Shown here piece by piece: positions 1 to 62,967 of a DNA stretch of 64,000 nucleotides (the stretch's first letter is position 1; every line of letters starts with the position of its first letter). The stretch lies in contig NC_088786.1 of the NCBI RefSeq assembly GCF_949628265.1, forward strand, positions 41,065,681 through 41,129,680. Direction: 5' to 3'. The position numbers were made by a program, and so were the translations under genes. The notes under the pieces were generated by a model. That model saw nothing but the letters and a program-made list of their open reading frames with translations, was not told where the DNA came from and ran no database searches. This stretch comes from Cloeon dipterum (lineage: Eukaryota > Arthropoda > Insecta > Ephemeroptera > Baetidae).

Positions 1-2901
1 GTCGAGGGAGCACCACCTGAAATTTGAGGGGCACCCCAGGTCCGTTCCGGAAAGCCAGTAGTCACCAATGGTCAACCACGAATATTCTAGCCCGAATTAA
101 ATTTTAAATGTCTTTAAACAATTAATAATATACTTGTAATCAGTTTGGAAATGCAATTCAATTTTCCAGTCGACTCTACGGAGGTTAAATTCAAACCTAT
201 TTCGCAGCACTGGTCCCTGGCATTTTTCCAGGTAGACTTTTATAGGGGTTGTGGTGAATTATTGCATTTACTATCTATTTTAAACCTTGGTTTTGGTGTA
301 AGTCAAAATGTTCCGGCCACAGCTGTCGTACCACTCGCCATAAGAAGTGTAATCTAAAACAAAATTAATTTAAAATCTTTGGTAAAAAATATCCATACTT
401 AAAAGAACGTTATTTGTCGAGTTGAACAGGTTGACCTATTAATTTAATTTTATTATTTATAATTAATTTGTAAATTAATTCGAATACATCTCGCTGGCAT
501 TGATTTAAAGGGCACGAAGCAGCACACGCCGGCTTTTCAGTCGCAATTAATTGCGTCTATTTGAAATAGTTTTTAAATTACTGTATAACATATTTTGAAA
601 TAAATAAAATGCATGCCTTGCAAGCGTAAACGTATCTGTTGGCGCAGTTCCTGTCGCTCATGATGGTGCCTGTCGCATTCAAAACGAAGCGAAAATGCAC
701 GCAGCTCTCGTTTCCATTTTTGTTGTCGGGCTGGCCGCGCTCCCAACTCAAATCCTGGCTGAAAATCGTGGGTCCCGTGGGTTCGCAAAACGAAAACTGG
801 CCTTCGGGAGAGCCTTTCGAGGTGCTGGAAGTCCAGTAGTTTAAATTCGCTATCCAGTTGGCTAAAAATTCTTTTGTTAAGGATGTACGGAGTTTAATTT
901 TAAAACTACTTTTGTTGTAACCGGCCGAAAAGCGTGTTAGTAATTGTTGCTCGGCAGCATTGTCGATGTTGAGAGACTCCATTCCCAAAGCATAGCATTG
1001 TTGCATGCTTGCCAACCAAGACATCTATATAGCAATCGTTTTATATTTATATAATTTTTGTTCAATTTCTAAATTGAAATACCGGTTTGTTTCCCAAAAG
1101 ATAGGTGTAGCTGCCGATGTTGATCCAGACACCGTAAGAAGTTCGATCTTGAAACAGATTTTAAAATACTCAAACTAAAATTCTTGGCATTCTTTCATAC
1201 TTATCAAATTTCCATAAGAATCAAATAAGTTTGTCTGGATTTTCATAAATTTTTGTAACAGAATTTAAACAAATATTTTAATTCTAACGTTTTTGGTGAA
1301 CTGCTTGGGACAGTCGACGGGAAACTGGCAAATGTAGGGCAGTGCGTCATCGCATTTTCTGTGAGTCATCCCCTGCTCCTGCTTTTCGGAGTGGTGGAGA
1401 TTTCCAGGGCCAAACAGCGTTGGAGGGTTGACAATGGTGCAGGGGTTGGCAGCCAGAATTTGGACATTGATGTGAGAGAGGTCGACATGTTGTAGCCGAT
1501 CGAGCACCACGCGTATTTCTTTTCCAAATCGCATTTTGGATCTTCATTGGAGCCGCTTGTCCAGTAAGTTCCATCTGTTTTTGACAGGAAAATTTAAAAT
1601 TTCAATCTTTTTAACTAAAGAAACCTTTAAAACTGGAGAGACAGTTCATTTCCTCGAGAGATGTGACTGCCAAGAGGGACATTTTCAATGCAGAGCAACG
1701 CAATGCCGCTTCGTTCCTCGTCACCTTTTAAATTGTAATTAATTTACCTGATTTTGGATTTAATTTTTAATTTTCTTACAGCAACATTTGAAACGTAATA
1801 GAGCCGGTTGCATCTTGACGCCTTTTGCACTGAACCGTCCGCTAAAAAAATTAATTTAAAAAATCCCTAAAAATTTTAATGGCTCATTTTACATTGTGAT
1901 GGTTTCACTGTTGGGGTTTTCTGTAATTTAAATTATTTACTATAAAAGTTTAATTATTATTTCGGTTAAAAATATACTGTCAGGAAGTTATTGAAATCTG
2001 TACACGATAAGATGCACGAGAGAGGCTAAAATTATATAAAAATTAATTTTTTTTATCCTTTAATTCCCTCGAATTAAACCAACTAAAGGAAATAAGGTAT
2101 CTCCAGATTGGGTTGTTGCAGTTTTCCCTCCGTTAAGTGCTGAGGTGACTGAAATCGAAGATTCAAGTGATATTGGATTGAGTTTAATTGTTTCTGACGA
2201 TCCTAAAGCGTTTGCTGTGACGGAAGATGGTGACGTCATCAGAAAAGTCACATTTTCATCCGTAGTGGCGCCACTGGTGCTTTCTTCCGAAGTCAAAGCG
2301 TCGGTTCTGCTTCCTCCTTGATCTTCACTAGTTTTTCCATCAATTCCGCTATCCCTGATATCCGAAAAATCCCTGCTAGACGGTTTAGCTTTAAAAATGT
2401 GAACATTTTATTTGTATAATTATTTAAAATTTATTTAAATATTTCTTCACTAGCAGTTGTTGGACCGTTCTGCTTGCTGTTGCGGGCACTTCCTGTCGAT
2501 CTAGCCGCAATATTCTGCATTGTAATGGTGTCAACCTTCTAGAAAATTATTTTATTTAAAACAATTTCTAATGTAATTATTTTTTGCGTTCTACAGTCGC
2601 AGTTGAAGATGTCCTTAATCTTGTCGAGTTAGTTGGCCCGCAAGTTTTCCGCCCGCAACACTTGATGATGGTTCGTCTACGCGACGACTTGGAAAATCGA
2701 GCTTTTCGTGATTTAAATGAAAACCATCCTCCATAATTTTAATTAACCTTCTCACCAGCATTCTTTGACTTCGATTTTTTATTCAGCATTTCAAATCAGA
2801 GAATAAGAGTTTTTTAATAGAATTATTCCACTTACTTGGAGAGTTACTTGTCCAATGCTGATAATTATCATCAAAATGAGACACAAGTTGCCGAGTTTCA
2901 T
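1..2901 (-). CDS. Secreted multi-CTLD protein, paralogue B (3' end lies beyond the window)
   Basis: Start is the ATG at 2901, which opens an 18-residue signal peptide (MKLGNLCLILMIIISIGQ). Exons read on minus: 2848-2901, 2595-2687, 2451-2538, 2084-2388 (Ser/Thr-rich), 1978-2025, 1893-1920, 1780-1841, 1625-1724, 1312-1574 (these last three form CTLD1), 1083-1147, 910-1024, 617-861 (CTLD2), 488-556, 399-435, 286-353, 134-236 and 1-86 (start of CTLD3). CTLD2 shows the sugar-contact motif QPD, followed by NKNGNESCV and a final Cys. Exon sizes match paralogue A almost one for one (65, 115, 245, 37, 68, 103 bp). Exon 1312-1574 is 263 bp where A has 258, so the CTLD1 reading frame is lost before its PYICQF block. 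The gene may be a recent pseudogene or an assembly error. The end of exon 1 (2848 or 2836) is uncertain. The OBP and CTLD4 parts, if present, lie left of base 1. Confidence 0.75.
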
Positions 2902-4404: not shown

Positions 4405-4410
4405 TTTATT
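4405..4410 (-). terminator. Poly(A) signal of the CTLD-OBP gene
   Basis: AATAAA on minus, 30 bases past the stop codon of the gene ending at 4440. The position suits a very short 3' UTR. Confidence 0.45.
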
Positions 4411-4439: not shown

Positions 4440-7400
4440 TTACAGTGGCTCGCATATAAACGATGCTAAATTATTATTTGTGATAGGATCAAAATTATAG
4501 AACAATTCGTGGATGTTCCCGTTGGCGACGCTGATCAAGACCAGCTTGAGAAGGCCGATGTTGACCGTGACGATGGATTCTGTGCACGGATACCTGTGTA
4601 CTCCGGTTGATAAGAAGTACAGATCCTGAGGCAACATCTTGCGGCTGTGACACCACACCTCCCGCGTCTGGTCGATTGATTCCGTGTCGCCCACAAGCAC
4701 GTTGAATGGCGTTTGGTTTTCTGTGAAAGCGAGATTTTGAACTTTAACAATGCACTTTATAGAAAAAATTGAAAACTTGATATATTCAGGGCCAATTGCA
4801 GGTCTGCCAGGGTCGCTGGTTCAAAGAGTTTCATTCCAAGGTTACAGCAGCGTTTGAACGCTGCAGCCGCATCCTGAACAAAATATTAATAAACAGGTCG
4901 AAAAATTAGTGAAACCTGCTCCCACCGTGTTGCCAACGGTACCGAAAAAGTAGGTCCTTCCATTGACAATCACCCTGCTGCCGATGTAGTCTATTGAATT
5001 CATTAGTTTCAATTTATTTCTTAGAACGATTTTAATTCTAATTGCCTGCTCCATTTTGGATGTTGAGGCTATTGATGACCGCTGGCTACAATTTAAAATA
5101 AATGAATATTTTTATACGAATAATAAAATTCATACATCCGAAGTACAGGGATACCGATCGGACATCCAGCAGCTTCGACGCTTTGGAACACAGGGAAGGG
5201 GAGGGGAAGCCTTAAAGAATAATTTTAATACGAAAAAAATAAAATATTTTAAATACAGACCACTGGTGATGCCTTAATGTCACTTTGCGCATTATTTTGG
5301 ACGATTTTCGCGACCAAATCAGGCTCCTTTTCCAGACCGCATTTGTATGTGTCGTAGGCAGACACGCACTCGTCGTCAGATTCTATTAATTTAATTATAA
5401 AATGTATTTTTAAATCAAACTTTTGCTGCTGCATCCGTCGTAAGCCGCGAATCCCTGTTCCATCTTGACAGGATCGTCTTCGGCGGCGATTTCTACTTGA
5501 CGCAGCATGTCAATGCCGCTCACACCCCCGGATTTAAACTAGAAAAAATATATTAAACAAAGGTCCACCAGGCATTTTGCCTCGAAATACCATTCCAACC
5601 TCCACGCCAACGCATTTCAAGAAGCACTATGCGATTAGAAAATAAATTATTTTATACTAAAAGAGAAATTTTGTACCAGGCACCTTCAAATTTAACGAGA
5701 TGTTTGCTGAACTAAAAACACTGACGTTCAAAAGAAAGTCAATTTCGTCTAAAATTTAATTTAGTCAGCTTTTTATATTATAAACTAATTCATAATCTCT
5801 ACAGGTGCTAATATTCCAAATTTCTCTGCATTCAGATTGAATCTGAAGTTGAGAGGAGGCTGCACTTCTCCGAACATCGCACAAAAAATTCTTTTCCTCT
5901 GCGCAGTCGGCGGTGGCCAGACGCGAGGATTCGTTTCTCGCCTCAAGATAAACGCAGTTTAGGCCTTTTACTGGGTGTCCCTCCTTCCACCTGAGCTCAG
6001 GGTTGACGAAATCGCGGTCGAGGGAGCACCACCTGAAATTTGAGGGGCACCCCAGGTCCGTTCCGGAAAGCCAGTAATCGCCAACGGTCAAAGACGCGAA
6101 TTCTTCGATCGAATTAAATTAAACAAGTTTAAAATTCTAAATAATTTTACTTGTAATCAGTTTGGAAATGCAATTCAATTTTCCAATCGACTCTATGGGC
6201 GTTAAATTCATTCCAATTGCGCAGCACTGATCCCTGGCGTTCTTCCAGGAAGACTAATTTAATCGATTATAGGCGGAGAATTTTTATAAAAATTTATTTA
6301 CCCTAGTTTTGGTGTAGGTCAAAATATTTCGGCCACAGCTATCGTACCACTCGCCGTATGACGCGAAATCTATACCAAAATATCTAAAATCTTATCTTAA
6401 AAAAAGAAATCCTTACCTAGAAGAAAGTTAGTACTCGAGTTGAAAAGGTTGACCTTTATTTAAATAATTAAAATTATACGCACTAAATTAAATTAAATTC
6501 AACGCACATCTCGCTGGCATTTATTCAAAGGGCAAGAAGCAACACACGCTGGTTTTTGGGTCACAGCAGCAGTGAGTTGCGTCTGAAATAAATTTAAGGT
6601 TTTCATATATTTTACGAATATTTCGAATGGCTTCCTGCCTTGCAAGCGAAAATGTATCTGTTGTCGCAGTTCCTGTCGGTCATGATGGCGGCCGTCGCGT
6701 TCAAAACGAAGCGAAAATGCACGCAGCTCTCGTTTCCATTTTTGTTGTCGGGCTGGCCGCGCTCCCAAGTCAGGCTGGGGCTCAAAATCGCGGGTCCAGT
6801 GGATTTGCACCACGACCACTGACCCTCAGGAGCACCTTTCCACGTACCGGAAGTCCAGTAATTGAAATTCACCTTCCAGTCGGCTGGAGTTTGTTTTTTA
6901 TGTTATTAATTTCTTGATAATTTTAAACACAAACTGGCGTTTTTTCCAAGTGTCAAGCTGGACAAGGCCCGTTGCTCGGCCGCGTCGTCCAGATTGAGAG
7001 CCTCCATTCCTAAAGAGCAGCAATGCTGCCAACTGGACGACCAGGACATCTATATGCCAAGAATAAATGAATTCCTCGAGTTTTATTGATTAAATAATTA
7101 TTAACTGGCTTGTTTCCCAAAAGATACGTGAAGCTGCCAATGTTGATCCACACTCCGTAAGAATTTTGGTCTAAAAATGACCAATTTTTATGTAAAGACC
7201 ATCTTTGAGGAAGTTTCTGAGCCCACCAATCGATTCCTGAGGGTCGAATTAGGTAAAGTGGGTGTTTTTTCCGTTAAAAAAGTGCAGCGCGACGTGCGAA
7301 CATTTTTCCCGCCAAAACAATTTGAACATATTTGCGAGAAATGCGCATGCGTCAGAGCTGGCTGGATCTGAGAAACAAGTCATTCGTACAGGCGGTCTCT

Positions 7401-9051
7401 CTGCAAGTGCTCAAACCAGCTCTCACGCATGCGCAGTTCTCGAAAATACGTTTATGTTGTTTTGGCGGGAAAAAAGTTCGCACGTCGCGCTACACTTTTT
7501 TAACGGAAAAAACATCCACTTTACCTAATTCGGCCCTCAGGAATCGATTGGTGTGCTCAGAACTCAGAAACTGCATCAAAGATGTTCTTTAAACCGTACC
7601 AATTAAATTTCCTGCTGAGTCGAATAAGGAATCCTGCGAAATTGAAAATAATTTCTATATTTTTTCCAAATAATTCTGAGATCGCACGTTTTTGTTGCAC
7701 TGTTTGGGACAATCGACGGTAAACTGGCAAATGTAGGGCAAATTCTCTTCACAATTCCTGAGGACCATCCCCTTTTTGGGGGTGGTTGAGAGGTCAAGGG
7801 CCAGACAGCGATGGAGGGTGGACGGAGCGGCAGTGGTAGACATCCAAAATTGCTCCGAAGAAACCAATTCCGAGGAAATATTGAAGCCGGTTGAGCACCA
7901 AGCGAATTTCTGCTCCAAATCGCAGTTGAGGTCTTCGTTCGAGCCGCTCGTCCAAAAAGTTCCAACAGCTGATTCGAGTTTATAGATTTCTGTGTAAAAA
8001 TCTGAGCAAACCTGTCAAAGTGGCCAGACAGTTTAGCTCTTCGAGAGAAGTGACGGCCAAAAGCGCCATTCCCATCGACTTGCATCGCAAAGCTGCTTCG
8101 TTTCTCGTCACCTAATATTTATTTTATTAATGTTAAAATTTGTTAGGAATTTTTACAGCAATTTTTGAGAGGAAATATTGTTTTCCACACAGTGCTGCCA
8201 TCTGCGTGGAACCATCCGCTGTTAAATAAAAATTTTGTTTAGTTTTAATTAATTTAAAAAGTATAAATGAGCATTATTTACATTGGGCAGGTCTTATTGC
8301 TGGAGATTTCTTTCAAAAAATAGATTTGAGTGGTTAATATTGAAAAATTAGGGAGTAGTTAACGCATGATAATTACCAATTGGTAGTTTGTGTAATCCGA
8401 ACACGTTAAATGACAAGGCGCAGGCTTAATTTAAAAATAATTTGGCCTCATTAACATTTTTAATTGCTCAAATGTATGACTCACTGTGGTTGTTGGTGCC
8501 GTTTCTTCAATTAAATTAGAAAGTGTTTCTGAATTTTGCGGGATTATCGTCGTGGGAGAAGAACTATCTGAGGACAAAAAGGTCGAAACGATCACTTCTC
8601 CATTTTCTGTGCCAACAGCCACGGAAATAGTCTCTCCAGGATTTTGAGCTGCTGATTTGTCCTCTTAATTTTTAAAAATGTTTTTAATTTTTTGGTTATT
8701 TATTTACTAGTAATCATTTCTGCAGTAAATTTCGAAAGCGGCGTTGAAGTGTTGTTCTGCTCGTGGCATTAATTAAATTTTATTTTAAAAATATTCAAAT
8801 AACTTACTCCGAGTGGCTTTGAAGAAGTTCTTCTTTTTGCCGGACTGCAAGTTTTAGATCCGCAGCACTTGATGATATTTTTCCTCCGCATCGACTTCGA
8901 AAGACCAGAATTCCCTTTCATTTTCTTGGCATTCCTTTGAATGCTCTATTTAAAGATGATTGGAATTCAAAATCTTCTAAAAATTTGGTATATTTACTTG
9001 TCCAATGCTGATGAGAACCATCAAAACGAGGCACACGTAGCACAAATTCAT
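4440..9051 (-). CDS. Secreted CTLD-CTLD-CTLD-OBP-CTLD fusion protein (paralogue A)
   Basis: ATG at 9051 opens a signal peptide (residues 1-18). Exons on minus: 8998-9051, 8808-8924, 8708-8756, 8485-8663, 8377-8424, 8282-8309, 8157-8218, 8012-8111, 7711-7968, 7106-7170, 6935-7049, 6639-6883, 6508-6582, 6417-6453, 6302-6369, 6151-6253, 5803-6102, 5684-5748, 5591-5626, 5421-5538, 5264-5382, 5147-5180, 4926-4990, 4777-4873, 4440-4720. The sum is 2718 bp, 905 aa. Layout: basic patch with KCCG (19-57), Ser/Thr-rich (58-160), CTLD1 (about 170-298), CTLD2 with QPD (299-440), Cys linker CPLNKC, CTLD3 (about 480-620), OBP module (626-747), CTLD4 (about 759-905). CTLDs suggest carbohydrate or surface binding and the OBP fold suggests binding of a small hydrophobic ligand; both are family inferences. 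The joins around 5155-5264 and the exon ending at 7711 are the least certain. A MITE sits in the 7171-7710 intron. Confidence 0.82.
5147..5845 (-). other. Odorant-binding-protein module inside the CTLD protein
   Basis: Read across exons 5803-6102 (last part), 5684-5748, 5591-5626, 5421-5538 and 5264-5382, the peptide has six cysteines spaced C1-X30-C2-X3-C3-X42-C4-X8-C5-X8-C6, the classical insect OBP (PBP/GOBP) signature. C1 is the TGC at 5828-5830. C2-C3 is CFLKC at the start of exon 5591-5626. C5-C6 is CVSAYDTYKC. All splice phases agree. The exon at 5803-6102 encodes the last CTLD3 cysteines (FLCDV) and OBP C1 without interruption, tying the two folds into one protein. Confidence 0.85.
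7194..7593. mobile_element. Long-TIR MITE, copy 1 (intron of the CTLD-OBP gene)
   Basis: About 400 bp, nearly a complete fold-back: the left arm (…AAAGACCATCTTTGAGG, CCACCAATCGATTCCTGAGG) returns inverted on the right arm to …GTTCTTTAAA. The inner arms carry 'cgcatgcgt' and 'gttttggcggg' blocks in opposite orientation. Two other copies lie at 32079 and 34659. There is no transposase inside. Ends look like TTAA followed by AAAGAC, which hints at a piggyBac-type mobiliser; that is inference. Confidence 0.75.
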
Positions 9052-10293: not shown

Positions 10294-13200
10294 ATGGAAA
10301 ATAAGCTTCTCTGCGCCGCAATCGAAGAGCAGGACCTTAGGTAATTTATTTTAAACTAAATTCGTACAGGTAATAGTGATTGAAAACAGTTGGGCCACTT
10401 TTCTGTTGGGAGAGCTGAACGCCGAGCCGAACAAAATCGACCCTGAGAGCGGCATCGCGGCCATCCACCTGGCCGTCGGCATGTCTTCAGCCTTATCGGC
10501 GCAATTCGTCCAAACCCTTCTCTCCTTCGGCGCCGATCCGAACCTCAGGTAAGACCTGCCCTGATTAATTTAAATCTGAATTATACATATTTTCGGCAGG
10601 TCGGCAGACGGCTGGACGCCTTTGCACATCGCGGCCGGCTGGTCCAAGACGGAAATCTTGCAGAATCTGCTCAAGAGTGGCGCCGATCCGGATCTAAAAG
10701 ACTCGGAAGGCCTGACGCCCATGGACTACGCCGTCGAGCAGGGAAATTTTGAGGTCGTTAACGTCCTTCGATGGCATTGCAAAGAGACGGAGATGGAGGA
10801 ACTTCAGGATCAATTTACTTATGGTGTGAATTTATTTCTTATTATTTAAAATGTACATTTTAATTCGAATAAGTTGATTTAAAAAAAAAATCGAAGAAAA
10901 GGGGATTTTTGCGCAGTTTTTGGGTGCTTGTAGGGGGCCGGTTAGGGTCCATTAGACGCAGAATTTTACCACGAGTCCAATAAGCATTTGTTTTTGGCTG
11001 TACGACCCTTAGGAGCCGAATTATTAATTTTTTAAGACCGAAAAATGAGTTATGCGACATTACAAAATGGGGTATTTGGGGCCGAGGAGGGGTCCTGTGG
11101 GTCGGAGGAGGTTGATTGACGCACCAGTCGATGCCCCTCAGTGGGGCGCGTCCTCCCGTCTGCATTTTTCTAATAACAAACCATTTTTCGATTTTTTAAG
11201 AATTTTTTTCTGCAAAATTTTAGAATTCTTAAAAGTTAAATTTGTTTCAAAGAAGAGATTTCCCAGACATGATGGCTATCCACCTTCGATAAGTATCAAA
11301 TGAAGAACATTTTTTGGGATTTTAAAGAAACTTTTCGTTAAAATTTGAAATAATTAATTTTTTCCGTTTTTTTCGACCAATTTTGGCTTCCACTGGCCAT
11401 ATCTCCGGTCCAGGACAAAAATTAAAAATTCGACAACGCGGGCCCTCTGAAGAATTAATTTACGCGTTTATTGACACCAAATACGTCCATTTATCTAAAA
11501 AAATTGAGGTTTCGGAGCTAAAAAACGTGACTTTTGGGCTTTCTCCGTAAAAATGGAAAAATCGCCATTTTTCCCGCAAGGGGGCCCAGATTGCGATCTT
11601 TGCTAATCCACCGTACACGTAGGCCCGACGCCGGTCTGGAGACAAATTTTCAGATATTTCGCCCCCATAAAAAAATTAAAATTTGATTTTTCAGTTTTTT
11701 TTGCGTCTGAAACACGGGATAATTGTTTTATTTTTGTTTAAATTCGACGCGTTGTTGCATTTTAAGTCACGAGATCTCAAACGATTTGTCTCGACCAGCC
11801 CCACCACCTGACATACCCTGAAGACCTTTTTCAGGGTACCCCACCCTGAGATTGGTCCAGGAGTCACTCTTCGCGATTTTTCCAACAACTCGAGCGCACA
11901 CGCAAGCGCAGAGCAGTTGTTTAATAAATAAATAAGGGGCCAAGGTTCGTTGTTCGTTATTCGTTTGAGTTTATTTGTTTATTCATTTCCTTTGTCTAAT
12001 CGAGTCAATCCTTCAGCTCTTTGAATTAATTCGTTTCCGATATTTTTCAGAAAGAGTTGAAATCGAAGATGCCGAGACAGTCTACTCTTTGGCTTTGGTA
12101 AGCAAATTCAAATTTTCTGACCCTCCTGAACTAATTTTTATTGTTTAGTCTTTGGAAGATGTCAGGCTGGAGGAGCCAGTGTCCAAAAAATGGTGTGACG
12201 TCGAATCGAGGAGCGATGCAAAGTCCGACGTTTGCTTATCAGACGACGAGTTTAAAAGCTGCGTCAGCTCGTTGTCAGTCGTGTCCCAGGTTTTCCGATA
12301 CACAGACCGCACCACAGGCGTTTCACTCATCGAGAAAAGACTCAACAGGTTAGATTTTTATTTCATTCCTTTCCCAGTACAATATTCGAACCAGAGATTT
12401 CTTTCTTTCTTTTTGAACACAAATTGTCCTATTGAAAGCGTCTAAGTCTTTCTTTGATTTTCTAAATCAATTTTGTTTTCAACTGTAAAATAAAAACAGC
12501 CCATAAACCGAATTGAAAATATCCAGTCGATAAAATTGACATAAAATTATTATTATTAAATTTCCTCAATATTCAGAGTAATAACTATGGTTATTTTCAT
12601 TAAATATTATTTCTTTTTAAGTTAGGATTGTCCCGAGAAAATTATTTGAGGCATTTGTCGTCAAAAATTTCAGTGCGATGGGCGCGGTGGCCGGAAAAGA
12701 ACAGAGCGTGGCCTCGGAAGGTACAAATCTAACTGAAAAAAATTATCCAGAGTAAGCAAATTTAATTATTTTAGACGTTAGAGGGTCGCGGAACAGCCTG
12801 GTGTCGATTTCTTCGGAGCTTGGTTACAGTTCCGACCACTTGTCGAATGCCTTGCGGGAGAAAGGAGCGAAACCTGGTCCAATCACCAATTCCACAAAGG
12901 CCGTCTACGCCAGGCAACTGGCTCGGCTTAAGAAGGGACGGAAAGGGCAGCAAATTGAACAGGAAAACACGACAAGTACGTTGAAATTGTTTGAATGTGT
13001 CGTAATGAAGCGTAACGAGCAGTCGGTGTTATTGTTTGAGTCGTAATAACATTCACTGGCTCTATTTAAAATCGAACAACAGCTTTGAAAACATTTAATT
13101 CACAATTGTATTAAATTTTCTGGAAATATATTTGCTTAAAATACATGTTATAGGAGATTGTGAATCGATTTCCATTTTTTCGTAATTTTGAAACCGTCGA

Positions 13201-14411
13201 AAAATTAAATTTATAAAGTTAAAATCGATCTGTGACCCTTAATTTCTCGTCTAAACCTAGTTTTCCATCCTGAACAACTTTTAATTATGCTTAAAAGTGG
13301 CAGGTTTACGACCTTTTATCAAAAATTCGATTTTTCAGGGTAAAAGTCCCCTCCTCTCCGACTTTAAATTTAAATGGACAAATTTTAAACACAAAAACGA
13401 ACTCATTTCAACAAAATATCTTTTTTCTAATACAAAATCCCGTATTTCAAATCCAGAATTCAGCCGGGAGCTCGAAAAGACCCTGAAAAACCCTTCGTCC
13501 TTCGACCCCGCTCCGGCTTTGGCCCTGGAGCAGCGGTTGGCGACGGAATTCACGTCCTCGGTGGAAAAAGGGAGGGAACTGCGGGGCGGGCACCTGAAAA
13601 CCAGCTTCACCTACCTCTTGCTCGACCCCAGGGTGACCCTGAACCTTCCCCTCCGCGCTCACGACCTGGGCCCTAAGGAGACCTGGAGAACTTTCATTCA
13701 GAGCGTGTTTTACGTCGGTAAGGGGAAGCGTTCCAGGCCCTACTGCCACCTGAATGAGGCGATCGCCGCCGGGAAAGGGGAGAATCAAGGTCGACCTGAG
13801 CCCGGAGCAAAGATCAAGCGCATCCTGGACATCTGGAAGGCTGGCTGTGGAGTCGTCTGCCTCCACGTCTTTCACAGCGTCATCCCTGTCGAGGCGCACA
13901 CCAGGGAGGCCGCCATGATTGATGCGATAGGTTAGACCTTTTTCAGGGATTTTATTTTTTTGCTATTTTATCTCAAAAATTGACTTACGCACACCAACAG
14001 GAGCCAAATTTAACCTTCAGGGCCTGACCCTGACTTTACCCTGAAGGTCAAAATGTTGTTTTATTAGATTTTTATCAGTTTTAATTTCGAAATTTTGATT
14101 ATTTTGATCTTTCAGGGTCTAGTCAGGTTTACCCTGGAGGTTATCCCTGACCTTTTAAGGTTAAATTAAATTTTATTTGAGTTTAGCTCTTTGGAAGTTA
14201 AATCGAATTAAAACTAATCGTTATTCTTTTTCCTGTTTTTCCGTCAGGGTTGTCGAACCTGTGCAACATGAAAGGTGGCGAGTACTACGGCGTGGTGTCG
14301 ACCAAGTCGGCGAAGGAGCAGTGCCACTTTGGAGTTCACCTGCTGCGCAACGCAATGAACATTTTTCTGCACGAAGGGGAGAGACAGTTGTTTCCCTCCG
14401 ACATCAGCTAG
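10294..14411 (+). CDS. Ankle1: Ankyrin-LEM-GIY-YIG endonuclease (ANKLE1/LEM-3 family)
   Basis: Exons 10294-10340, 10390-10548, 10600-10823, 12051-12097, 12149-12348, 12674-12720, 12775-12975, 13457-13930, 14248-14411 join in phase (1563 bp, 520 aa). Residues about 15-140 are ankyrin repeats (AAIHLAVG, TPLHIAAGW, TPMDYAVEQG). A LEM domain follows near 250-300 (LREKG, KPGPITNSTK, VYARQL). The C-terminal GIY-YIG nuclease begins with YLLLDP and FYVGKG and ends with a segment around GGEYYGVVST. In animals ANKLE1/LEM-3 cuts branched or bridged DNA at cell division, acting in cytoplasm and midbody; the role here follows from the family. It is shorter than human ANKLE1 (about 615 aa). The large third intron is filled by repeat R1. 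Start chosen as the first ATG, followed directly by LCAAIEEQD, typical of an ankyrin start. Confidence 0.9.
10868..11900 (+). repeat. Dispersed repeat family R1, longest copy (ANKLE1 intron 3)
   Basis: Fills most of the 10824-12050 intron. It has the 5' block (tttaccacgagtccaat, gacattacaaaatgggg, cagtcgatgcccct), a middle with 'ccatatctccggtcc' and 'cgtaggcccgacgccggtctg', and the tail 'agacctttttcagggt' with 'accccaccctgagattgg'. It is about 1 kb and appears closest to full length. No open frame or terminal repeat was recognised. Confidence 0.6.
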
Positions 14412-17136: not shown

Positions 17137-17842
17137 TTCGATCGGTTTGGCGGAGAAAGCGGTGCCGCATGCAGCAGCGCAGGCCAAATTAATCCGAAAA
17201 TCAAACCGAAACACGGGACAACAATACAGCTCGATCCATACTCTCTTTGACAGATAATTATGTCAACAAGGACGAAGCAGCAGACGAATCAAATCTCTTG
17301 TTTACGAATAAAAACTCGGCTTCCCGCTTTGCTAACAGATGGCGTCGTGATGATAACCGATAGAATTTACCGGTTTTTTTCAAATGAGTCAAGAATATTG
17401 GTGATAATTAGCTGTATTCTCGAATAAAATTGTGATTATATTACTTATTTAAATTAATCATTAAGTTTTTACTTGAAAATCATGTATTTAAATCGTTTTT
17501 CATCAATTATTACAAGACAATAATACCGGTAGTTCGCTAAAAAATCACCGCCAGCTGGTGTAGTGCTGCCACTGTTTGGCCAATCTGCCGCCACACGTAG
17601 AGGCAATCGCGCAATCTGATTGGCCCATCCTCTCCGCACTCTCCGGCTGGTAGCAACACACTGCCACGCCCCCGTTTTAAAGATTTTTGGCCATCTCTCC
17701 GTAAAAGGCGCTCTGTCGCGGGCTGCAGGAGCAACAACCCCTGAACTTACAATTAGTGCGCCAAGGACGAGGAAATTCGCGTCCGTCCTCCTGGCGAGAG
17801 AAACGCAAGCAAAAAGGGCGCGTCCCGAGCAAAGCCGGCCAG
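17137..17842. promoter_or_regulatory. Shared upstream region of rogdi and the NCKIPSD-like gene
   Basis: 706 bp between the two start codons, read outwards. It is AT-rich on the left half and GC-richer from 17560 on. It should hold both promoters and 5' UTRs. No TATA box is evident, as expected for broadly expressed genes. Confidence 0.5.
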
Positions 17843-20800
17843 ATGAGCGAGAACAACAATAATGACCTAGGTATTAACATCGATAAGCGGATGAAAATGT
17901 TGTTTATTCAAAGAGGATTATTTTTTTGTTATTTTAAAGAGTTGCTGCGAGCGCTGTACGACTTCAACGCAACAGACCCAAAGACGCTGAGTTTCAAGCA
18001 CGACGAGCTGTTCATCAACCTCGAGAAAAACATCGGCTCGCGCAAGTGGTGGAAGGTGGTCAGCAAGGATGGCCAGGTCGGCTTCATCCCCTGCAACTAC
18101 GTCAGCAGCCAGGAGGCGAGTACTATAAAAGGTCAAAATTTGGTTGTTAAATAATTAATAAAAATTCAGGAGAGCGTGGAGGACGTGCTGAACTTCATAG
18201 ATGTGTGCTGCATCGCGCTGCAAAACTCTGGAGGCTCGTCTGCAAAGCTGCTGAGCGAGCTGCAGGCGAAACGGAAGCGCGTAACCGGCGCGTGTGATTC
18301 ATTCGAAAGCTCAAACCCCAGAGCTCCGCCCGAGGGGGCGCCGTCTCTGCCAAACAACGAAATTAAATCGGCCTCTTCCCACTCACTTTCCACAGACATG
18401 AACGTAAATAGAGATAATTTATTAAAAAGGGTGAAAATTTAATTTTTTCTCGCCAAGGAGGAGCAAAGAGCGGAGGCAGCCTACGAGCTGGTGCAGCAGG
18501 TGCGGCAGAAGACCGGCCTGAAGCACGAGCTGTCCTGCGTGGCCGTCAGGGTGGTGCTCGAGGGCATGCGCCAGCTGCCCTTTGACATGGTGTCCGCGCC
18601 CGTCGTCTCGGTCGCCGGCTCGCTCATCTCCTTTCTCGACGCCGCGCACGAAATGCCTGATTCGGTCCTCGACAACACCCACGATGCCTTCAGGTCAGCA
18701 AAAAATATCATTTTTGTGCCTTTTTTTTATTAAAAATCTTTTTTCAGGTTGCGTGTTGTGTTAGAGGAGTTGGCCACCGCGAAGGACGACGACCAGCAAC
18801 GAAGCTGGATGCTGCACGAGGACGAACAAACCCTGAAGGATTATTTGTCCGAACTGCAAAGCATTCTGGTTAGTTATTTATTATTGATTGTGAGAGGATG
18901 CGTCAATTTAAATCGTGTTTTGACCTTTGCAAGCCGATTAATGCCACGCGCTGAAATGGCAGTGCAAGGTCAAGGGTGAGGGGGGATTATAAAGTCGTTA
19001 ATCGATAAATCTTTTAATTATTTGTTTATTTTTACGCAATAATTATGTTTCCTTGAGGATTTTTTACAATAAATTAAAAGGTGCAGTCGGAGAACATTTT
19101 AATCCAATTTTAAATAAGCAATGAGGATTCGGCGGCGTTGGAAAAATCGCGGAAAGGAGCTCCAGGGCCGATCTCAGGGTGGGGTACCCTGAAAAAAGGT
19201 CGTCAGGGTATTCAGATGGTAGGGCTGGCCGAGACAATGCGTTTGAGACCTCCTGACTTGAAATCCATAAACCTGTCGAATTTAAACAAAAATAAAACAA
19301 TTTTATTATCGAGCGGCAAAGGAAAAAACCCGAAAAAAATCAAATTTAATTTTTCTATGGGCGTGAATAACTTTAAAATCGGTCTGCAGACCGGCGTCGG
19401 GCCTACGAATGGGATGGAACAGTAAAAGCAGCCGGATTCAATCCTAAAGAAACCTCAGAAAATCCAAACAGTGGTGCCATCTGTCGGCATTCTTGTAGTA
19501 ACAAAAATTGTGATGAATGTTGCAGCGTGATGCTGACTCGAAAGTGTGCATTCGCGTGCTGGAGCGGATGCAGTGGGAGGGTGTGGAGGTGCTGCTGCAG
19601 TTCTACCAGATGGAGTGCCGGTGGAGCGTGCGCGAGTTCCTGCTGCGGGCGCTGTCCGGTCTGTGCGCGCTCCACAACACGCCCAGGGTCATCATGCTGT
19701 CCTCCGTGCTGCCCATGGAGCTCGCCAGGGACATGATGAGCAACCCCAACGACCTCGCCAGGCTCGTCGACTCGGCCAACCTGCTCACCATGATCTTCAG
19801 CACGGGACAGCCCATGCCGGTCACACACTTGGGTACCAAAATCTTTATTTTATTCCAAACAAATTTAGATTAGGCAATTTCTAGTAGAAAATTTGTCACT
19901 TTCGCTGTGAAATAGAACAAAATTACATAAACTTGTCCTTAAAACACTTAAAAATTTGATAAAAACAGGTTTTCAGCACACCACACATCCCCCCTCAACT
20001 ACCGGAGTCGTGATTTGAGGTGTTTCCGATACCCGTTTTGTCAATTTTAGTATTTGATAAGCAGACTTTAATCAAATAGAACCGTTTGTATCATTTTAAT
20101 ACCACCAGGGGCATAGTTAGCTTATCAAACTTCCGGTAAGGGAGAGGGGGCCTAGTGTGTGGTTTAAAATTCACTTGAGTTTTAAAAATCTAACAGACAT
20201 TTTATTCGTAAACTGAGCAATTCTTCCTAAGCTAACATAAGAAATGTATCGAAAAAGGGGCGTGGCCTTAAAAAATTTAAAATGGGGCGTAACTAACTGT
20301 CATTTTTCGCCCTGGTGGCTCAATTTAAGGGCATTGGTGGAAGAAATGAACGAAATACACGCTTATCAAGTTGCCAACACGAGATTTTTGCCACTCCAGT
20401 CAAACAGGGGGAGTCGAGTGTGGTGTTTTCAACGTTTAAACGGAAAATGATGTTTCAGAACACATGGGAGCGGCGTTTGTCGAGTTCCTGCACAACAACG
20501 TCGAGCAGCCGCCCGAGTGTGACGTGGCAGACCAGATTCCAGACGTGTTCCTGCGTCTTCTCGTGGCCATAAACTTGCAGTTTGAAGATGGCAGCGAGAA
20601 CGTGCTGCTGTACGTGCTCTCCAAGTGCTCCGTCGCACAGAGCTTCACCGAAAAGGTGCTGCTCATGTTCAACAGAGAAGGTAGCACATACATTCCATCC
20701 GCCATGTTTTAATTTGCCTGAGTCTTTTCTCTTCAGATGACCCCGTGGCCCAGTTTTGTTCCTCGTCCGCTAAAATTCATTCCATCGTAAAGCTGTTCCT

Positions 20801-31040: not shown

Positions 31041-32078
31041 TTACCGTGGGATAATCAGCTGTTATTTAATGAATAACAACAAAAATATTCATTGTTCGCT
31101 CTCTTCCAAACGCCATATCTGCGCGTCTCGTGAATCCAGGCCCAGTGTAAAAACGTACGCATCAATTTTTCGATTTAAAAATTTATTTGAAATATTTTTT
31201 TCAAATTTAAAACTTCAAACATTTGAAAATAAACAGCCCGACACATTTCAACAAGTTTGTAACACTTGTGAGTTTTCCGCATAAAACGCGGGCTTTTTAT
31301 TTTACGAGGGTCGATCGAAACGCTTCATAAATTCGTAAAAACGGTGTCGTAAAGTTGTAATCCGCGATGATTGACGGCGGCGAAATTTAGTCCCGAGCAG
31401 CTGCAGCCTCTCGCCGACGAGAGAAAATATGAAAAAAAAGGCAAAGCTTGCAAAAATAATAAATCCACTTCTGCGCGAGACAAATTTGGCGTGAAGTGCG
31501 TCGTTCTTCTCAATTAGCCGGCGACTCAAGTGCAGCGTGAAATTTCGAAAATGCAGGCAGCACTTGAAGGCAGGCAGGCAGCGCCTTTTTATATTTTTTA
31601 TTCCGCTCGACCAGAGTTACAGCTTATTTTCGAGAGCACCGCCGGCTAAATTTAACTCTTCACCCTCGCGTACAGCCTCTCATCTCGATCTCGATCTCGC
31701 CTAAAGCTGCACCCAGCCACCAATCATTCTCTTCGCTTTATAGCTGCTTTAATTTTCGCTCAAGAACAAATCTGCAAATTTAATAATAATAATATTTTGT
31801 GAATTGTTTATTAAGTGAAAAATTGTTTAAATTTTATTGCTTCATTAAAACATTACGTAAAATATATTAAATTTTAGGAATTTTAAATTTAAATTGTAAA
31901 AAATTCGACATCAATTCTAAATAAAGAAAATCAGGTTGATAAAATTTTTGTAAAATAAATTTAAATTATTTTAAATCGAAATTATTTGAAAAAAAGTTAA
32001 GGAAAAGCGCAAAATTGTTTTGTGTCTGGATTTATTTTTGCTTTTCACATGCCGACGGATTTTTCAAATTTTGAAATT

Positions 32079-32478
32079 TTTTAAAGACCGTCTTTGACGA
32101 CGTTTTTGAGCCCACCAATCGATTCCTGAGGGTCGAATTAGGTAAAGTGGACGTTTTTTCCGTTAAAAAAAGTGCAGCGCGACGTAAGAACTTTTTTCCC
32201 GCCAAAACAATATGAACGTAAATTCGAGAGCTGCGCATGCGTGAGAGCTGGTTTGAGCACTGGCAGGGATACCACCTGCACGAATGACTTCTTCGTCACA
32301 TCCAGCCAGCTCTCACGCATGCGCATTTCTCGCATTTACGTTGAAATTGTTTTGGCGGGAAAAATGTTCGCACGTTGCGCTGCACTTTTAGGTCAGAAAA
32401 AATATCCATTTTACCTAATTCGACCCTGAAGAATCGATTGGTGGGCTCAGAAACTTCGTCAAAGACAGTCTTTAATTT
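32079..32478. mobile_element. Long-TIR MITE, copy 2
   Basis: Starts TTAAAGACCGTCTTTGACG and ends with the inverse …CAAAGACAGTCTTTAA. The same internal blocks as copy 1 (tcctgagggtcgaattaggt, tgcgcatgcgtgagagctgg, gttttggcggg) occur in both orientations. TTAA lies at each end. Confidence 0.8.
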
Positions 32479-34658: not shown

Positions 34659-35055
34659 TTAAAGACCGTTTTGGCGAAGTTTTTGAGTCCACCAATCGAT
34701 TCCTGAGGGTCGAATTAGGTAAAGTGGACGTTTTTTCCGTTAAAAAAAGTGCAGCGCAACGTGTGAACTTTTTTCCCGCCAAAATATTCTGAACGTTAAA
34801 GCGGGAACTTCGCATGCGTCAGAGCTGGTTTAAGCACTTGAAGAGAGACCACCTGCACGAATGACTTATTTGGCAGATCCAGCCAGCTCTCACGCATGCG
34901 CACTTCACGCATTTACGTTCAAATTGTTTTGGCGGGAAAAAAAGTTCGCACGTTGCGATTGAATTTTTTAACGGAAAAAATATCAAATTTACCTAATTCG
35001 ACCCTCAGGAATCGATTGGTGGGCTCAGAAACTCCGTCAAACACGGTATTTGATT
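34659..35055. mobile_element. Long-TIR MITE, copy 3
   Basis: Left end TTAAAGACCGTTTTGGCG, right end the inverse near 35055 with a decayed terminus (…GGTATTTGA). About 300 bases upstream of the ionotropic receptor start. Same structure as copies 1 and 2. Confidence 0.75.
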
Positions 35056-35346: not shown

Positions 35347-38309
35347 ATGAGGAAATTGGCACGCGATTTGTTTTGCTTGTTTGGCCTGTGGAGCGGCGTG
35401 GCTTTGGTTGGCGCCGCCACCGCCGCCGCAAATAAGTGCGTCACCGCCTTCGCCGCCGACGCGCCCAGCATTGTCCTCGTCGCGCCTTTCTGTCCGCAAA
35501 TAATCGCCGGCCTCCGTCCCCACCCTCGACAACCCATCACGCTCCTCTGCGGACTCGATCAGCGGTAGGAAAAATAACTAAAAGTAAAATTAATTAACTC
35601 GTCTCAGTAGGTTTCCCAATGGCGTGAGTTTGGGTTCGAAAGTGACCCTGATCCTTCAGTTGGGACAACATGGAAACCTTTCGGAGACGTTGGTCCAGCG
35701 CTTCATCTCGACGCACAACAAACTCTTTTGGGAAACGCGAATCGTGGTGGTCGTGGAGCAAAACCCGGAGAGTGTCTCGCGCGTTTTGTGGAGGCACAAT
35801 TTGCAGAGGAGCACGATTGCCGTTCTTGAAGGAGACAAAGGTAAACCCTGAAGGTGGAAAACTGGCAAAAATCATCTTAATCGATATTTCAGTCATCTTT
35901 TTCAGGGCGTATTCGGAGACTGGAGGCGTTTGTGAAGGAATGACGCCTCCGGAGCTGACCAAAGTTGCAGAGTGCTCAGGGGAGGGTGACCTGAAAGTCC
36001 TGGAGGCAGGAAAATTGGAGGTGTCGCCAATGCTAGACCTGAACGGATGTGTCGTCGACGTGGCTACCATTAATTTTCCTCCCAGTGTCATCCTTTTTTC
36101 CGGTAATATCATGGATCAGGGGTCACCACTTTCAATTAAAATATGGTAGGGGAGGGAAGTCAGGTATAGTCGTGAGAAAGGTAGAATTTAAGATCGGATC
36201 AAAGAAGAATGAAGGGGTGGAATGAGAAGTAACTGGGAGAGGGGAGAGCCAGATTTATAAGGAGGGGAGGGGTTGGAGGGTAAACCAAAAAATAATGATA
36301 TCTACTTAATGATCATTTTTAAGGGTAAGAGGGGAGGGAAAGGTTTTACATTAATAAAATGGTGGTCAGGAGAGAGACAAAACAGAAGCAAAACTTGCAG
36401 AAAAGAAGATTAGGAGAGGAAAAATCATTCAATTCAATTTAAGGGGAGGGTAAATCAGGTACTAATCCACTATCAAACCACACAGAGACAGATCCATCGC
36501 CGAACGCGTCAACCGGAGTAGTCGAACCTTTAGGTGGAATCGAAGTGGCGCTGGTGCGCAGCGTCGGCGCCGCAATGAACTTCCTTCCCCGCTTCTACGT
36601 GTCAGCGGACAACCAGGGTTGGGGCGCTGGACACGAGAACGGCACCTTCAGCGGAATGTTGGGCGAATTGACGGCCGGAAGAGCCCAAATCGCGATGGGC
36701 TGTCTGATGCCTCTGCCTGTGCGCTTCCGCTTCTTGGACATGGCCGTGTCGCACGGCCACCGCAGCCTCGCGTGGGCCGTCCCGCCGCCGCGGCCGCAGC
36801 CCCGCTGGGCCGTCCTGGTCGAGGCGTTCGCCCCTGACACCTGGGCCGCCGTCGCCGCTGTCCTGGTGCTCGCCTTTCTCGTCCTCTCCGTCATCTCACA
36901 CGACCTGATTCCAGGTGAGTACATCATTTTATTCAAAAGACCCTTTTTTCCCCTCCCCTCTTTCCTCAGACGGAGCTCTGCTGTTCGTGTGGGCGACGAC
37001 CCTTGGCGTGTCGGTGGCGCGGCTGCCACGGGCTTCGTGGACCCGCACCCTGCTGCTAGGGTGGCTGCTCGCCTTCCTGGTGCTCAGCGCCGCTTACCAG
37101 GGCGCCCTCTTCAGCTTCCTGGCTGCGACACGATACGAGAAGGCGCTGGATTCGTTCAAGGACATCGTGTTGCGTGGCCTGCCCCTCGTCGCGCACCCCA
37201 ACTTCGAAGAACTGCTCGACGCTGGTGACGCCACCATCTCACAGCGGGCTAAAGAGTAACTAAAATAATTTGAAGTGGGATTTAGTCATGAATTTTTCTC
37301 TCTGGGACAGACTGTACGAGCCATCGGTGGACGGGGTGCTCAGGCAGCTGGACGTGATGGCGAAGGGCGGCCGCCAGGTGGCATGCATGGTCAACAAGGA
37401 GATGCTCGTTTGGTACAACTACCAGCAGAGACACTCCGGACATGTACGAACGTGTAAATTCTCGTGTTTTGATGATTTTGGAGGGAAATTATGCGTCTCC
37501 TAATTTAAAATTAAATATTAACGGTACAATTAGAAATTTCCTAAGTGCTTGGAGCTGGTAATAGATGGCTCCACAGCTCATTGACATTCCCAGGGGCCAA
37601 TTTACCGCGGCATAGGGAGAACTAACGTTGAATCCATCAGGATTCCACCTAGATCCACCAGGATTGGCAACTTAAAACCCTATAATTACATATTTAACCC
37701 TGCTATTGCGAATTTTTTGTGCAAAAATCCTAAAAACCGTGAAAATTTGTACATTTTGTTGAGCGGGAAACTGAAAAACGTGGTATTTTCCTAAAAAAAA
37801 CTTTCTAAAATAAAAAAATTATAATTAAGAATGGCGGTGAGACTGCTCCTACACATAATTTAAATCCCTTTTATGAGATTGGTGGTGGAATTATAAAACG
37901 TAACCAATTAGAACGTCGTTTTTACACTGAATTTCAAAATATCACGCAAGAATTCACGTTTCCCGCCTTTTTCTCTCGTGAATTTCAGATGGTGCACATT
38001 GCGCGGGAAGAAATGACCTCGTACCCGACGGTGGCGTTCCTGCGGCAAGGCTCGAGTCTGGTGGCTCGCTTCGACGTTTTGGTTCGGCGGCTGCTCGAGT
38101 CTGGCCTGGTGGACAAGTGGTTCGCCGAACTGTCGCTGCCGGTGGCGCGCACGCAGGTCGACGCGCCCCTCGTGCTCGGTCTGTACCACCTGAGCGGCAT
38201 CTTCATGGTGCTCGTCGTCGGCATGGCGCTCGCCACCCTCGTCCTCTTGCTGGAACTGCTCGTCCACCAGTGGCACCGCATCCACGACGCCTCAATCCAG
38301 CTTTTGTGA
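35347..38309 (+). CDS. Ionotropic receptor (insect IR family, divergent)
   Basis: Exons 35347-35564, 35611-35840, 35893-36102, 36486-36914, 36970-37255, 37311-37443, 37989-38309 join in phase (1827 bp, 608 aa). The start ATG opens a signal peptide (LFCLFGLWSGVALVGAATA). The N-terminal half resembles IR ligand-binding leads (IVVVVEQNP, VATINFPPSV). TM1 is VAAVLVLAFLVLSVIS, a pore segment follows (LLFVWATTLGVSV), TM2 is LLLGWLLAFLVLSAAYQGAL leading to a motif in the place of SYTASL, and TM3 near the end is MVLVVGMALATLVLLLELLV. The architecture is that of ligand-gated IRs, odour or taste channels in sensory-neuron membranes. It is too divergent to name a subfamily; it lacks an obvious long amino-terminal domain, so it is not IR8a/IR25a. 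Intron 3 (36103-36485) is purine-rich. Confidence 0.88.
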
Positions 38310-51300: not shown

Positions 51301-51509
51301 CTTTCAAAACCTACGTGCAACAAAATTTAGGTAGCAAAACTAGAGCGACCGTGACAGAAAACCGAAACTCGACACAGCAGCAGGAATTGAGTTCGGTTTC
51401 TCAAACGAAACCGGAATCACTTCAACCGGAATCACTTCAACCGGAGCAGGACCAGACAGGTTTTTCAATTTACAAATGGTTTACCGGTCTTTTCAAAAAA
51501 CAAAAATAA
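48306..51509 (+). CDS. P-loop GTPase-like protein with glycine-rich C-terminal half, gene 2
   Basis: Exons 48306-48335, 48389-50337, 50738-51509; 2751 bp, 916 aa. Tandem paralogue of gene 1 with the same three coding exons and phases. Walker A is GCTVSGKST, G3-like DCAGFEDTR, G4-like VTKI. The stretch at 49180-49470 is almost identical in DNA to gene 1 (three differences in about 290 bases) while the rest differs much more. The C terminus is 50 residues longer than gene 1: a polar tail with a repeated PESLQ and a last helix FSIYKWFTGLFKKQK that could bind membranes. Gly-rich blocks are GEDGLHGNAG, GGNGSDGQHGGAG, DGGRGGNSGS, NGKLGKGGIAG. The start ATG and the exon 1 peptide MAQELDSLLR align with gene 1 (…AQELDSLLR). 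Confidence 0.85.
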
Positions 51510-62400: not shown

Positions 62401-62967
62401 ATGGAAGTTTGTAGGAACGTGTAATTGGATTTAAGAAGCTGAGAAATTTGCATCAGGTTTTTCACGAACGCGTCCCTGCTCAGGTTCAGTTTAAAATTGT
62501 CGATATTCTCGACGATGACGATCTTGATCCTCTTAGCCATCTTTAGATACTCGTTATTCATGAAGGACGCAACAAAGTCCGTCTCGCTGCTCCTGGTATC
62601 ATTGAAGCCGGCGCAGTCGACGATCGTGCATCCAGTTTTTTCGTCTTTAACAACGTTGGGAAGAAGAGTTTTCGATTCAAAGCTTTCAGAACCGATTCCA
62701 CTGATGGTTTCCTCCGAGTCTACAAAGATGCATTCATCTTGAGCGTTCTCAATGATTTTCAGTGATTCGTCCTTGTTTAAAAACTTGACCAGAGCACTTT
62801 TGCCGCATCCTGTGTTTCCAATCAGTGCGATTATCTCGTTTGCTTCCCTTGAGGCAGTAGATATCAACTTGTGGCTCTCCTAAGAGGATATATTTTTTTA
62901 TAAAATTATTTTAAAAAATTCTTCTTACCTTTAAAACCCTATCCAGGTTGATTATCTCGTCTTTCAT
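59490..62967 (-). CDS. P-loop GTPase-like protein with glycine-rich C-terminal half, gene 3 (inverted)
   Basis: Exons on minus 62929-62967, 60919-62879, 59490-60249; 2760 bp, 919 aa. Walker A is GNTGCGKSA (last position Ala), G3-like DCAGFNDTR, G4-like ATKVDS, the best TKxD of the three. Same exon plan and phases as genes 1 and 2. Gly-rich blocks: GADGLDGNPG, GGDGSDGQDGGDG, DGGKGGDAGP, NGNAGKGGLGG, SRDGADGQSGPD. Unlike the others, the last exon carries a hydrophobic insert of about 60 residues (VAAAGTAALA, MLAIAANVVAVPVISWIA) that could be one or two membrane segments. The conserved 'FSSG…IALDV' beta block is kept. It is more diverged than genes 1 and 2 are from each other. The start ATG precedes MKDEIINLDRVLK, joined in frame to the P-loop exon. 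Confidence 0.85.
60360..60760 (-). repeat. GC-rich insert in intron 2 of GTPase gene 3
   Basis: Lies within the 60250-60918 intron. Its inverse shares 'gcggcgaagc' and 'cgcgacccctcat' with the 45470-47460 element. Several frames are open on both strands only because it is GC-rich and short of stops. Confidence 0.45.

Follow-up and report, generated by a model that had tools for sequence, protein, structure and literature searches.

In most descriptions, odorant-binding proteins (OBPs) are small, free carriers, and for many of them the function beyond smell is poorly understood. As far as the accessible text of the cited sources extends, the following systems are closest to the gene described here. 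The classic OBPs of Drosophila comprise 111 to 280 aa (PMC2258175), while in the dimer OBPs (PMC2258175) and the D7 salivary proteins (PMC3285218) a secreted chain unites OBP domains with a further domain; D7 genes were proposed to derive from an ancient OBP fused with an unknown gene (PMC6123390). Among insect multidomain C-type lectins, the partner domains reported for the CTL-X type are Ig and CUB (PMC7379682) as well as serine protease, CCP and coagulation factor 5/8 (PMC9954269), and CTL-X proteins have one CRD by definition (PMC9954269). For Cloeon dipterum, 191 OBP genes, some of them gill-specific, were reported in a compact 180-Mb assembly (PMC7250882).

We investigated a window of 64,000 nucleotides from Cloeon dipterum (contig NC_088786.1, the whole stretch of DNA analysed), in which, with high probability, one gene encodes a fusion of C-type-lectin domains (CTLDs) with an OBP domain. 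The most fitting class for the predicted protein is that of CTL-X-like multidomain proteins, here with a new partner. Similar to CTL-X proteins it combines CTLDs with an additional conserved non-lectin domain, here PBP_GOBP, but with three Lectin_C stretches instead of one CRD it is only CTL-X-like and lies outside the definition given in the accessible text of PMC9954269. Six-cysteine frame and Pfam PBP_GOBP match are shared with classic OBPs such as LUSH and the best PDB match, 4pt1. In contrast to these, the OBP part is an internal domain within 958 aa with no signal peptide of its own and a probably shortened helix 1, so that the model departs from the classic hallmark of a small secreted protein that stands alone and has a signal peptide. 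As in dimer OBPs and D7 proteins, an OBP domain is joined with another domain in one chain, with the exception that the partner is a CTLD array and that one OBP domain occurs instead of two. The OBP expansion reported in the available part of PMC7250882 is a candidate setting for such a fusion gene.

In agreement with the preliminary description, whose author knew of no CTLD-OBP fusion, none is described in the open-licence literature searched, within the accessible portions of PMC7250882, PMC13205551, PMC2258175, PMC6275457, PMC3285218, PMC7092997, PMC8235521, PMC7379682, PMC9954269, PMC5289563, PMC6123390, PMC13267129, PMC3091792, PMC4349049 and PMC8672594. An OBP is not named as CTL-X partner either, the word "odorant" being absent from the main texts of PMC7379682 and PMC9954269 as available, and "lectin" is absent from the corresponding main text of PMC7250882. 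Where the accessible literature mentions CTLD and OBP together, the domains sit in separate proteins. The fusion would add a new partner domain to the insect multidomain C-type lectins.

The gene lies on the minus strand (9051-4440) and is modelled with 27 exons, giving 958 aa. It is accompanied by a tandem copy:

8998 to 9051, minus strand: exon 1, encoding the start Met together with a hydrophobic stretch that resembles a signal peptide (hydropathy)
8282 to 8945, minus strand: exons 2-6, N-terminal linker of low complexity, rich in Ser/Thr (residues 19-166), with uncertain exon boundaries
7688 to 8218, minus strand: exons 7-9, CTLD1 (about residues 170-303) and beginning of the next unit (Lectin_C)
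6639 to 7633, minus strand: exons 10-13, CTLD2 unit with QPD at residue 428 (Lectin_C, PDB matches)
5876 to 6582, minus strand: exons 14-18 (first part), CTLD3 unit (Lectin_C)
5803 to 6102, minus strand: exon 18, CTLD3 end joined in frame with OBP C1, free of Met
5264 to 5748, minus strand: exons 19-22, OBP C2 to C6 and C-terminal tail (PBP_GOBP, PDB, coding scores)
4440 to 5210, minus strand: exons 23-27, degenerate fourth CTLD-like unit, to the stop (weak profile similarity)
1 to 2901, minus strand: tandem paralogue sharing the N-terminus and CTLD1-3, its CTLD3 truncated by the start of the window

The 958 codons contain no internal stop. The phases are consistent through all 27 exons, as stated preliminarily, but since the splice sites were picked to fit homology and the GT/GC-AG rules, this agreement is not an independent test. 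All 26 acceptors of the model carry AG; GT is found at 24 of the 26 donors and GC at two, and the leave-one-out donor scores of the model's own sites range from 1.2 to 7.3. The lowest of the 26 acceptor scores (-0.7, leave-one-out) belongs to exon 9 with its start at 7968; an alternative acceptor at 7990 was rejected because it would leave an intron of 22 nt. The shortest intron of the model measures 38 nt, and the GC content is 0.48 in exons compared to 0.28 in introns. An AATAAA at 4410 lies 30 nt beyond the stop codon (4442-4440). The N-terminal exons are uncertain: coding scores in the linker are weak for exons 3, 5 and 6, and for exons 3 and 6 an alternative frame outscores the modelled one. 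The length of 905 aa given before is replaced by 958 aa, subject to this uncertainty. The signal peptide proposed there was recovered by hydropathy as a hydrophobic Met start at 9051. Minus-strand peptides between 9100 and 4400 that begin with Met and have 15 aa or more were screened by a hydropathy cut alone; only this start and one peptide starting at 4440, overlapping the model's stop, passed.

The lectin part was recognised by Pfam in three Lectin_C stretches of the whole protein (E 3.4e-14). Searched per segment, CTLD1, CTLD2 and CTLD3 reached 24.3, 27.7 and 28.4 bits at a cut-off of 22.6, and the CTLD2 unit matched 48 sequences in the PDB with E values no higher than 0.1 (best 9.8e-8). 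The motif QPD is present a single time (residue 428), EPN and WND occur nowhere in the 958 aa, and by eye the WND position of CTLD2 reads MTD. Because EPN and WND are absent and QPD appears just once, sugar binding by the array is doubtful on the basis of these motifs.

The OBP domain is supported by several lines of evidence. PBP_GOBP matches residues 646-751, the only such stretch in the 958 aa, with 34.5 bits and E 2.4e-8 in the whole protein (cut-off 22), and the segment alone reached 38.5 bits (E 1.3e-9). As both PBP_GOBP and Lectin_C exceed their curated cut-offs in one translated model, this profile search, suggested in advance as a check, supports the fusion. The six cysteines reported before were found as C652, C683, C687, C730, C739 and C748 with a spacing of exactly 30-3-42-8-8, a pattern which occurs once in the model and which we take to be within the classic OBP range. 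The fold had been called complete, a description that goes slightly too far: the alignment spans profile positions 13-112 of 113. With the first 12 positions missing and the match beginning at position 13, helix 1 is probably shortened; 16 residues separate the last CTLD3 cysteine from C1. In the PDB, 16 sequences matched the segment at E up to 10, 15 of them named odorant-binding proteins; the sixteenth, AGAP010489-PA, gave the same alignment as the OBP 3q8i. E values below 0.01 were obtained for 11 of the 16, including seven LUSH variants, and the best match was 4pt1 (best E 5.2e-6). With codon usage learned from CTLD1-3 only, the modelled frame of exons 20, 21 and 22 scored 10.5, 25.5 and 23.5 bits, more than both other frames. 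Exon 19, which links C1 and C2, counts against the fusion with -1.0 bits and a GC content of 0.32, the modelled frame being the sole stop-free one of its three. The segment had no match in NCBIfam, a prokaryote-oriented library, and among viral contigs searched for its relatives none of nine pattern-matching stretches was confirmed.

Both parts meet in exon 18 (6102-5803). As described preliminarily, this single exon carries the CTLD3 end and C1 (codon 5830-5828); its frame is open from one into the other with no stop and no in-frame Met, and between exon 1 and the model's stop no signal-like Met start for the OBP alone was found among minus-strand peptides of at least 15 aa. Since exon 18 is open into C1 and the OBP lacks a signal-like start of its own, an OBP gene apart from the CTLD gene is unlikely. 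A pair of adjacent or nested genes, one for a CTLD protein that stops after CTLD3 and one for an OBP (with the fourth unit or without it) under its own promoter and with its own signal peptide, is thus judged very improbable, although a signal exon shorter than 15 aa would escape the screen. An acceptor-like CTTCAG/ATT before C1 (first base 5842, score 0.25) might be used by an independent first exon, but at least 15 of the 113 exonic AGs outscore it. Directly behind C1, another acceptor-like AG (first base 5825, score 4.1) ranks fourth of these 113 and counts against the fusion; used as such a first-exon acceptor, however, it would lose C1. Read-through of exon 18 would meet a stop near 5765, followed by ATTAAA at 5760 in intron 18. 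This signal and AATAAA/ATTAAA in several other introns also count against the fusion, and allow, without showing, early transcript ends. A 33-nt intron (5875-5843) between CTLD3 and C1 was rejected in view of its acceptor score (0.25) and a length below that of all model introns; its length is divisible by three, so the fusion frame is kept with or without it. The main product might instead be a CTLD protein devoid of OBP, with the OBP as an optional cassette included or skipped via the donor-like GAT/GTTCGG (last exon base 5876, score 3.1). This site counts against the fusion: it corresponds by homology to the place where CTLD2's last exon ends, and a splice from it to exon 23 would leave out the OBP and preserve the frame, both sides being in phase 0. 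The site is not distinctive, since higher scores (4.3 or more) are reached by at least 15 of 127 exonic GTs, and we regard this arrangement as rather unlikely.

A decaying gene or pseudogene with the OBP as fossil insertion could be suspected from the degenerate fourth unit and from the tandem neighbour, whose CTLD1 exon 9 differs in frame from the model through an alignment gap of 8 nt. Against this stand the 958 stop-free codons, splice sites usable throughout, all six OBP cysteines and a dN/dS of 0.16 between the copies, obtained from 244 codons in nine exon pieces that were in frame and trimmed to ungapped, conserved stretches, with none from the OBP. These leave out exon 9, where the frames differ, exons 1-7 and 10, which were unaligned, and everything past the start of exon 18, where the window ends. 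Decay is accordingly held to be very improbable. A component of matrix or mucus (cuticle, egg coat, gill mucus), with the OBP as a disulphide-rich structural module without ligand role, is a tentative alternative; several CTLDs nearly devoid of sugar motifs, the Ser/Thr-rich linker and 15 N-glycosylation sequons, three of them between C1 and C2, would be in accordance with it.

Returning to the encoded fusion, the in-frame gene structure and the domain matches are shown directly, whereas we infer secretion, glycosylation, ligand binding and tethering from the sequence. The product would be a secreted, probably N-glycosylated protein of Ser/Thr-rich linker, CTLD array and one classic-type OBP domain. 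The most likely origin is that OBP exons devoid of a signal-peptide exon entered the intron of phase 0 separating the CTLD3 and CTLD4 units, and that CTLD3's last exon lengthened past the old donor position into OBP sequence. The OBP module might hold a small hydrophobic ligand and the array might anchor the protein to a surface, matrix or partner, whereby a normally diffusing carrier would be kept in place. Such a tethered carrier is a possible but tentative function, and the chances for encoded fusion, origin and tethered carrier as one statement are about even. There is a slim chance that the CTLD scaffold captured the OBP to form a new class of tethered sensor. It would read a small hydrophobic cue, e.g. 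a lipid from microbes or the environment, jointly with a glycan or protein on a surface, perhaps serving pattern recognition in gill, gut or mucus layer, and OBP inclusion would be switched by splicing. Fusion to a lectin-like array would give the OBP a fixed extracellular address and thereby a concrete, testable handle on non-olfactory OBP functions. The observation behind the preliminary description, that one gene encodes CTLDs and an OBP as a fusion, has good support from the DNA and is confirmed at genome level. Its interpretation is partly supported, ligand presentation at a glycan-coated surface being weakened by the single QPD and the absence of EPN and WND.

Four CTLDs had been counted, of which three are Lectin_C stretches; the fourth unit (exons 23-27) is degenerate, had no Lectin_C match in Pfam and no CTLD match in the PDB, where the one hit (E 0.92) was a non-CTLD protein. 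Compared to a profile of CTLD1-3, built from three sequences only, its first half gave an hhalign probability of 69.8 over 44 columns, and the unit scored 16.5 bits, which none of 2000 shuffles attained (best 6.6). This points weakly towards a degenerate relative of the N-terminal half of CTLD1-3. The exon phases (0,0,1,0,1) are common to the fourth unit and the CTLD3 unit.

The minus-strand gene at 9051–4440 was modelled with 27 exons and a product of 958 aa, in which a Ser/Thr-rich N-terminus is followed by three C-type-lectin domains (CTLD1–3), an odorant-binding protein (OBP) domain and a last unit (residues 774–958). The preliminary description had suggested a comparison with the Pfam profiles Lectin_C and PBP_GOBP, and both match above their curated cut-offs. 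Lectin_C recognizes three stretches (E 3.4e-14), whereas PBP_GOBP matches once, at residues 646–751 (profile positions 13–112 of 113, E 2.4e-8; E 1.3e-9 for the OBP segment searched alone). The six OBP cysteines (C1–C6) at 652, 683, 687, 730, 739 and 748 reproduce the reported spacing 30-3-42-8-8. Among PDB sequences the OBP segment matched 16 up to E 10. Fifteen of them are named odorant-binding proteins, and the sixteenth, AGAP010489-PA, aligns as the OBP 3q8i does. An E-value below 0.01 was obtained for 11, seven of these being LUSH variants; the best match, 4pt1 (E 5.2e-6), covers only residues 41–123 of the 134-residue segment.

The introns are 38–67 nt long in 25 of 26 cases, and the GC content is 0.48 in exons versus 0.28 in introns. 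Introns so short and AT-rich mark the window as eukaryotic. All 26 acceptors are AG; 24 donors are GT and two GC (after exons 13 and 24), and by eye the site matching the end of exon 13 in a neighbouring tandem copy also has a GC donor (TGCAAG/GC). Splice sites were selected to suit homology and the GT/GC-AG rules, so their agreement is not independent evidence for the model. The remaining intron contains a repeat:
7175–7600, inverted-repeat element, MITE-like, in the 429-nt intron 10; relatives in both orientations near 32075–32475 and 34660–35051.

On the question of one gene or two, exon 18 (6102–5803) has an open frame that runs unbroken from CTLD3 into OBP C1 and contains no Met. Signal-like starts were sought with a hydropathy cut applied to minus-strand peptides of 15 aa or more that begin with Met, from 9100 down to 4400; only those at 9051 and 4440 passed, the latter overlapping the stop codon of the model. 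The cut is a rough substitute for a signal-peptide predictor, and a very short signal exon would escape it. A coding score trained on the codon usage of CTLD1–3 alone supports OBP exons 20, 21 and 22 in the modelled frame, at 10.5, 25.5 and 23.5 bits. That frame scores best in 25 of the 27 exons (exceptions 3 and 6), the CTLD1–3 exons being the training set. The weakest join is exon 19, with −1.0 bits and a GC content of 0.32; here the modelled frame is the only stop-free one of three. Because exon 18 lacks a Met, no signal-like start lies near the OBP and exons 20–22 score as coding, we read a single gene. A CTLD–OBP fusion, seen in one genome as a gene model from DNA alone, is thus credible. 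Two bases past the C1 codon, at 5825, an acceptor-like AG counts against our reading (score 4.1, rank 4 among 113 exonic AGs); if used, it would yield an OBP without C1.

The surroundings of exon 18 also bear on how the fusion could have arisen. In CTLD2 the last exon stops directly 3' of the final cysteine, at phase 0. At the corresponding place in CTLD3 a GT is present (GAT/GTTCGG, scoring 3.1 as a donor, with 5876 as the last exon base), exon 18 extends 73 nt further, to 5803, and OBP exon 22 rejoins the first exon of the next unit at phase 0. In this one gene, these features fit a history in which OBP exons entered a phase-0 intron separating two CTLD units and a former donor was overrun. 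Since the GT at 5876 and phase 0 on both sides would preserve the frame if the OBP were skipped, an OBP-less isoform is possible; the GT itself is undistinguished, as 15 or more of the 127 exonic GTs score above 3.1.

Of the four CTLDs claimed in the preliminary description, three stand as Lectin_C matches, and the last resembles CTLD1–3 weakly, in its first half. The last unit has no Lectin_C match in Pfam and no CTLD match among PDB sequences, but its first half resembles CTLD1–3 (hhalign probability 69.8, 44 columns), and the unit scores 16.5 bits against the three-sequence CTLD1–3 profile, a value reached by none of 2000 shuffles. Its exons (75, 40, 65, 97 and 281 nt; start phases 0, 0, 1, 0, 1) repeat the size and phase pattern of the CTLD3 unit (75, 37, 68, 103 and 300 nt, the last including the OBP start; same phases). 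It thus appears to be a degenerate CTLD.

The neighbour copy (2901 to the window start, minus strand) repeats the N-terminus and CTLD1–3; the expected place of an OBP falls beyond the window start. Nine trimmed exon pieces, together 244 codons, give a dN of 0.092 and a dS of 0.56; the dN/dS of 0.16 therefore indicates constraint on the compared CTLDs and, as the pieces are CTLD exons, has no bearing on the OBP. In exon 9 (CTLD1) of the copy an 8-nt alignment gap against the main gene shifts the frame; the copy may be damaged, the assembly wrong at this point or a splice overlooked. Among the short pieces dS is very uneven, being 0.15 for exon 18 and more than 1 for exons 8, 12 and 16, which may reflect gene conversion.

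The fusion is a new combination of known parts, and no description of it was found in the searched portions of the open-licence literature. Insect C-type lectins with extra domains (CTL-X) have Ig and CUB among the partners named in PMC7379682, and CCP, factor 5/8 and serine protease among those in PMC9954269. As the latter source gives CTL-X one CRD, the product is CTL-X-like rather than a CTL-X. The OBP fusions described in the sources consulted are OBP–OBP, namely dimer OBPs (PMC2258175) and long D7 proteins (PMC3285218); for D7 genes an origin from an ancient OBP fused with an unknown gene was proposed (PMC6123390). OBPs are absent in mites and, by the authors' statement, in crustaceans and myriapods (PMC6275457), which speaks for an insect as the source; a mayfly is a possible one. 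Cloeon dipterum is credited with 191 OBP genes in a compact genome (PMC7250882), and in the mayfly Parafronurus youi OBP genes have 6–8 exons (PMC13205551), in line with the five exons over which the OBP is distributed in the present gene.

From its hydrophobic start the product is predicted to be secreted, its 15 sequons (three between OBP C1 and C2) suggest N-glycosylation, and family membership suggests that the OBP binds a ligand. The only QPD motif lies in CTLD2, where the WND position reads MTD by eye; EPN and WND are absent throughout the model. QPD points to galactose-type ligands by a rule with exceptions (PMC8235521). With a single QPD and neither EPN nor WND, the CTLDs are read as attachment or protein-binding modules, and the product might then serve as a tethered carrier. 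This is the function we favour, tentatively and with considerable doubt; a purely structural product is just as likely. The explanation as a whole (fused gene, OBP entry and tethered carrier) has in our judgement an even chance of being right.

Other features of the window are:
10580–10849, plus strand, ankyrin repeats (E 5.6e-14).
13285–13935, plus strand, LEM-3-like GIY-YIG domain (E 1.1e-40).
17705–18154, plus strand, SH3 domain of an adaptor-like protein (E 1.6e-13).
36443–37228, plus strand, ligand-gated channel glutamate site, weak match (22.9 bits against a cut-off of 30).
39957–42739 and 48368–51509, plus strand, and 59490–62879, minus strand, P-loop proteins, long frames with Gly-rich stretches, three sets alike by eye.

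The separate ankyrin and GIY-YIG pieces perhaps belong to one ANKLE1/LEM-3-type nuclease gene. The match at 36443–37228 is possibly an ionotropic receptor, from another chemosensory family. The three P-loop sets gave weak Pfam P-loop matches, one of which exceeds its cut-off (KAP_NTPase, 22.5 bits, 59490–62879).
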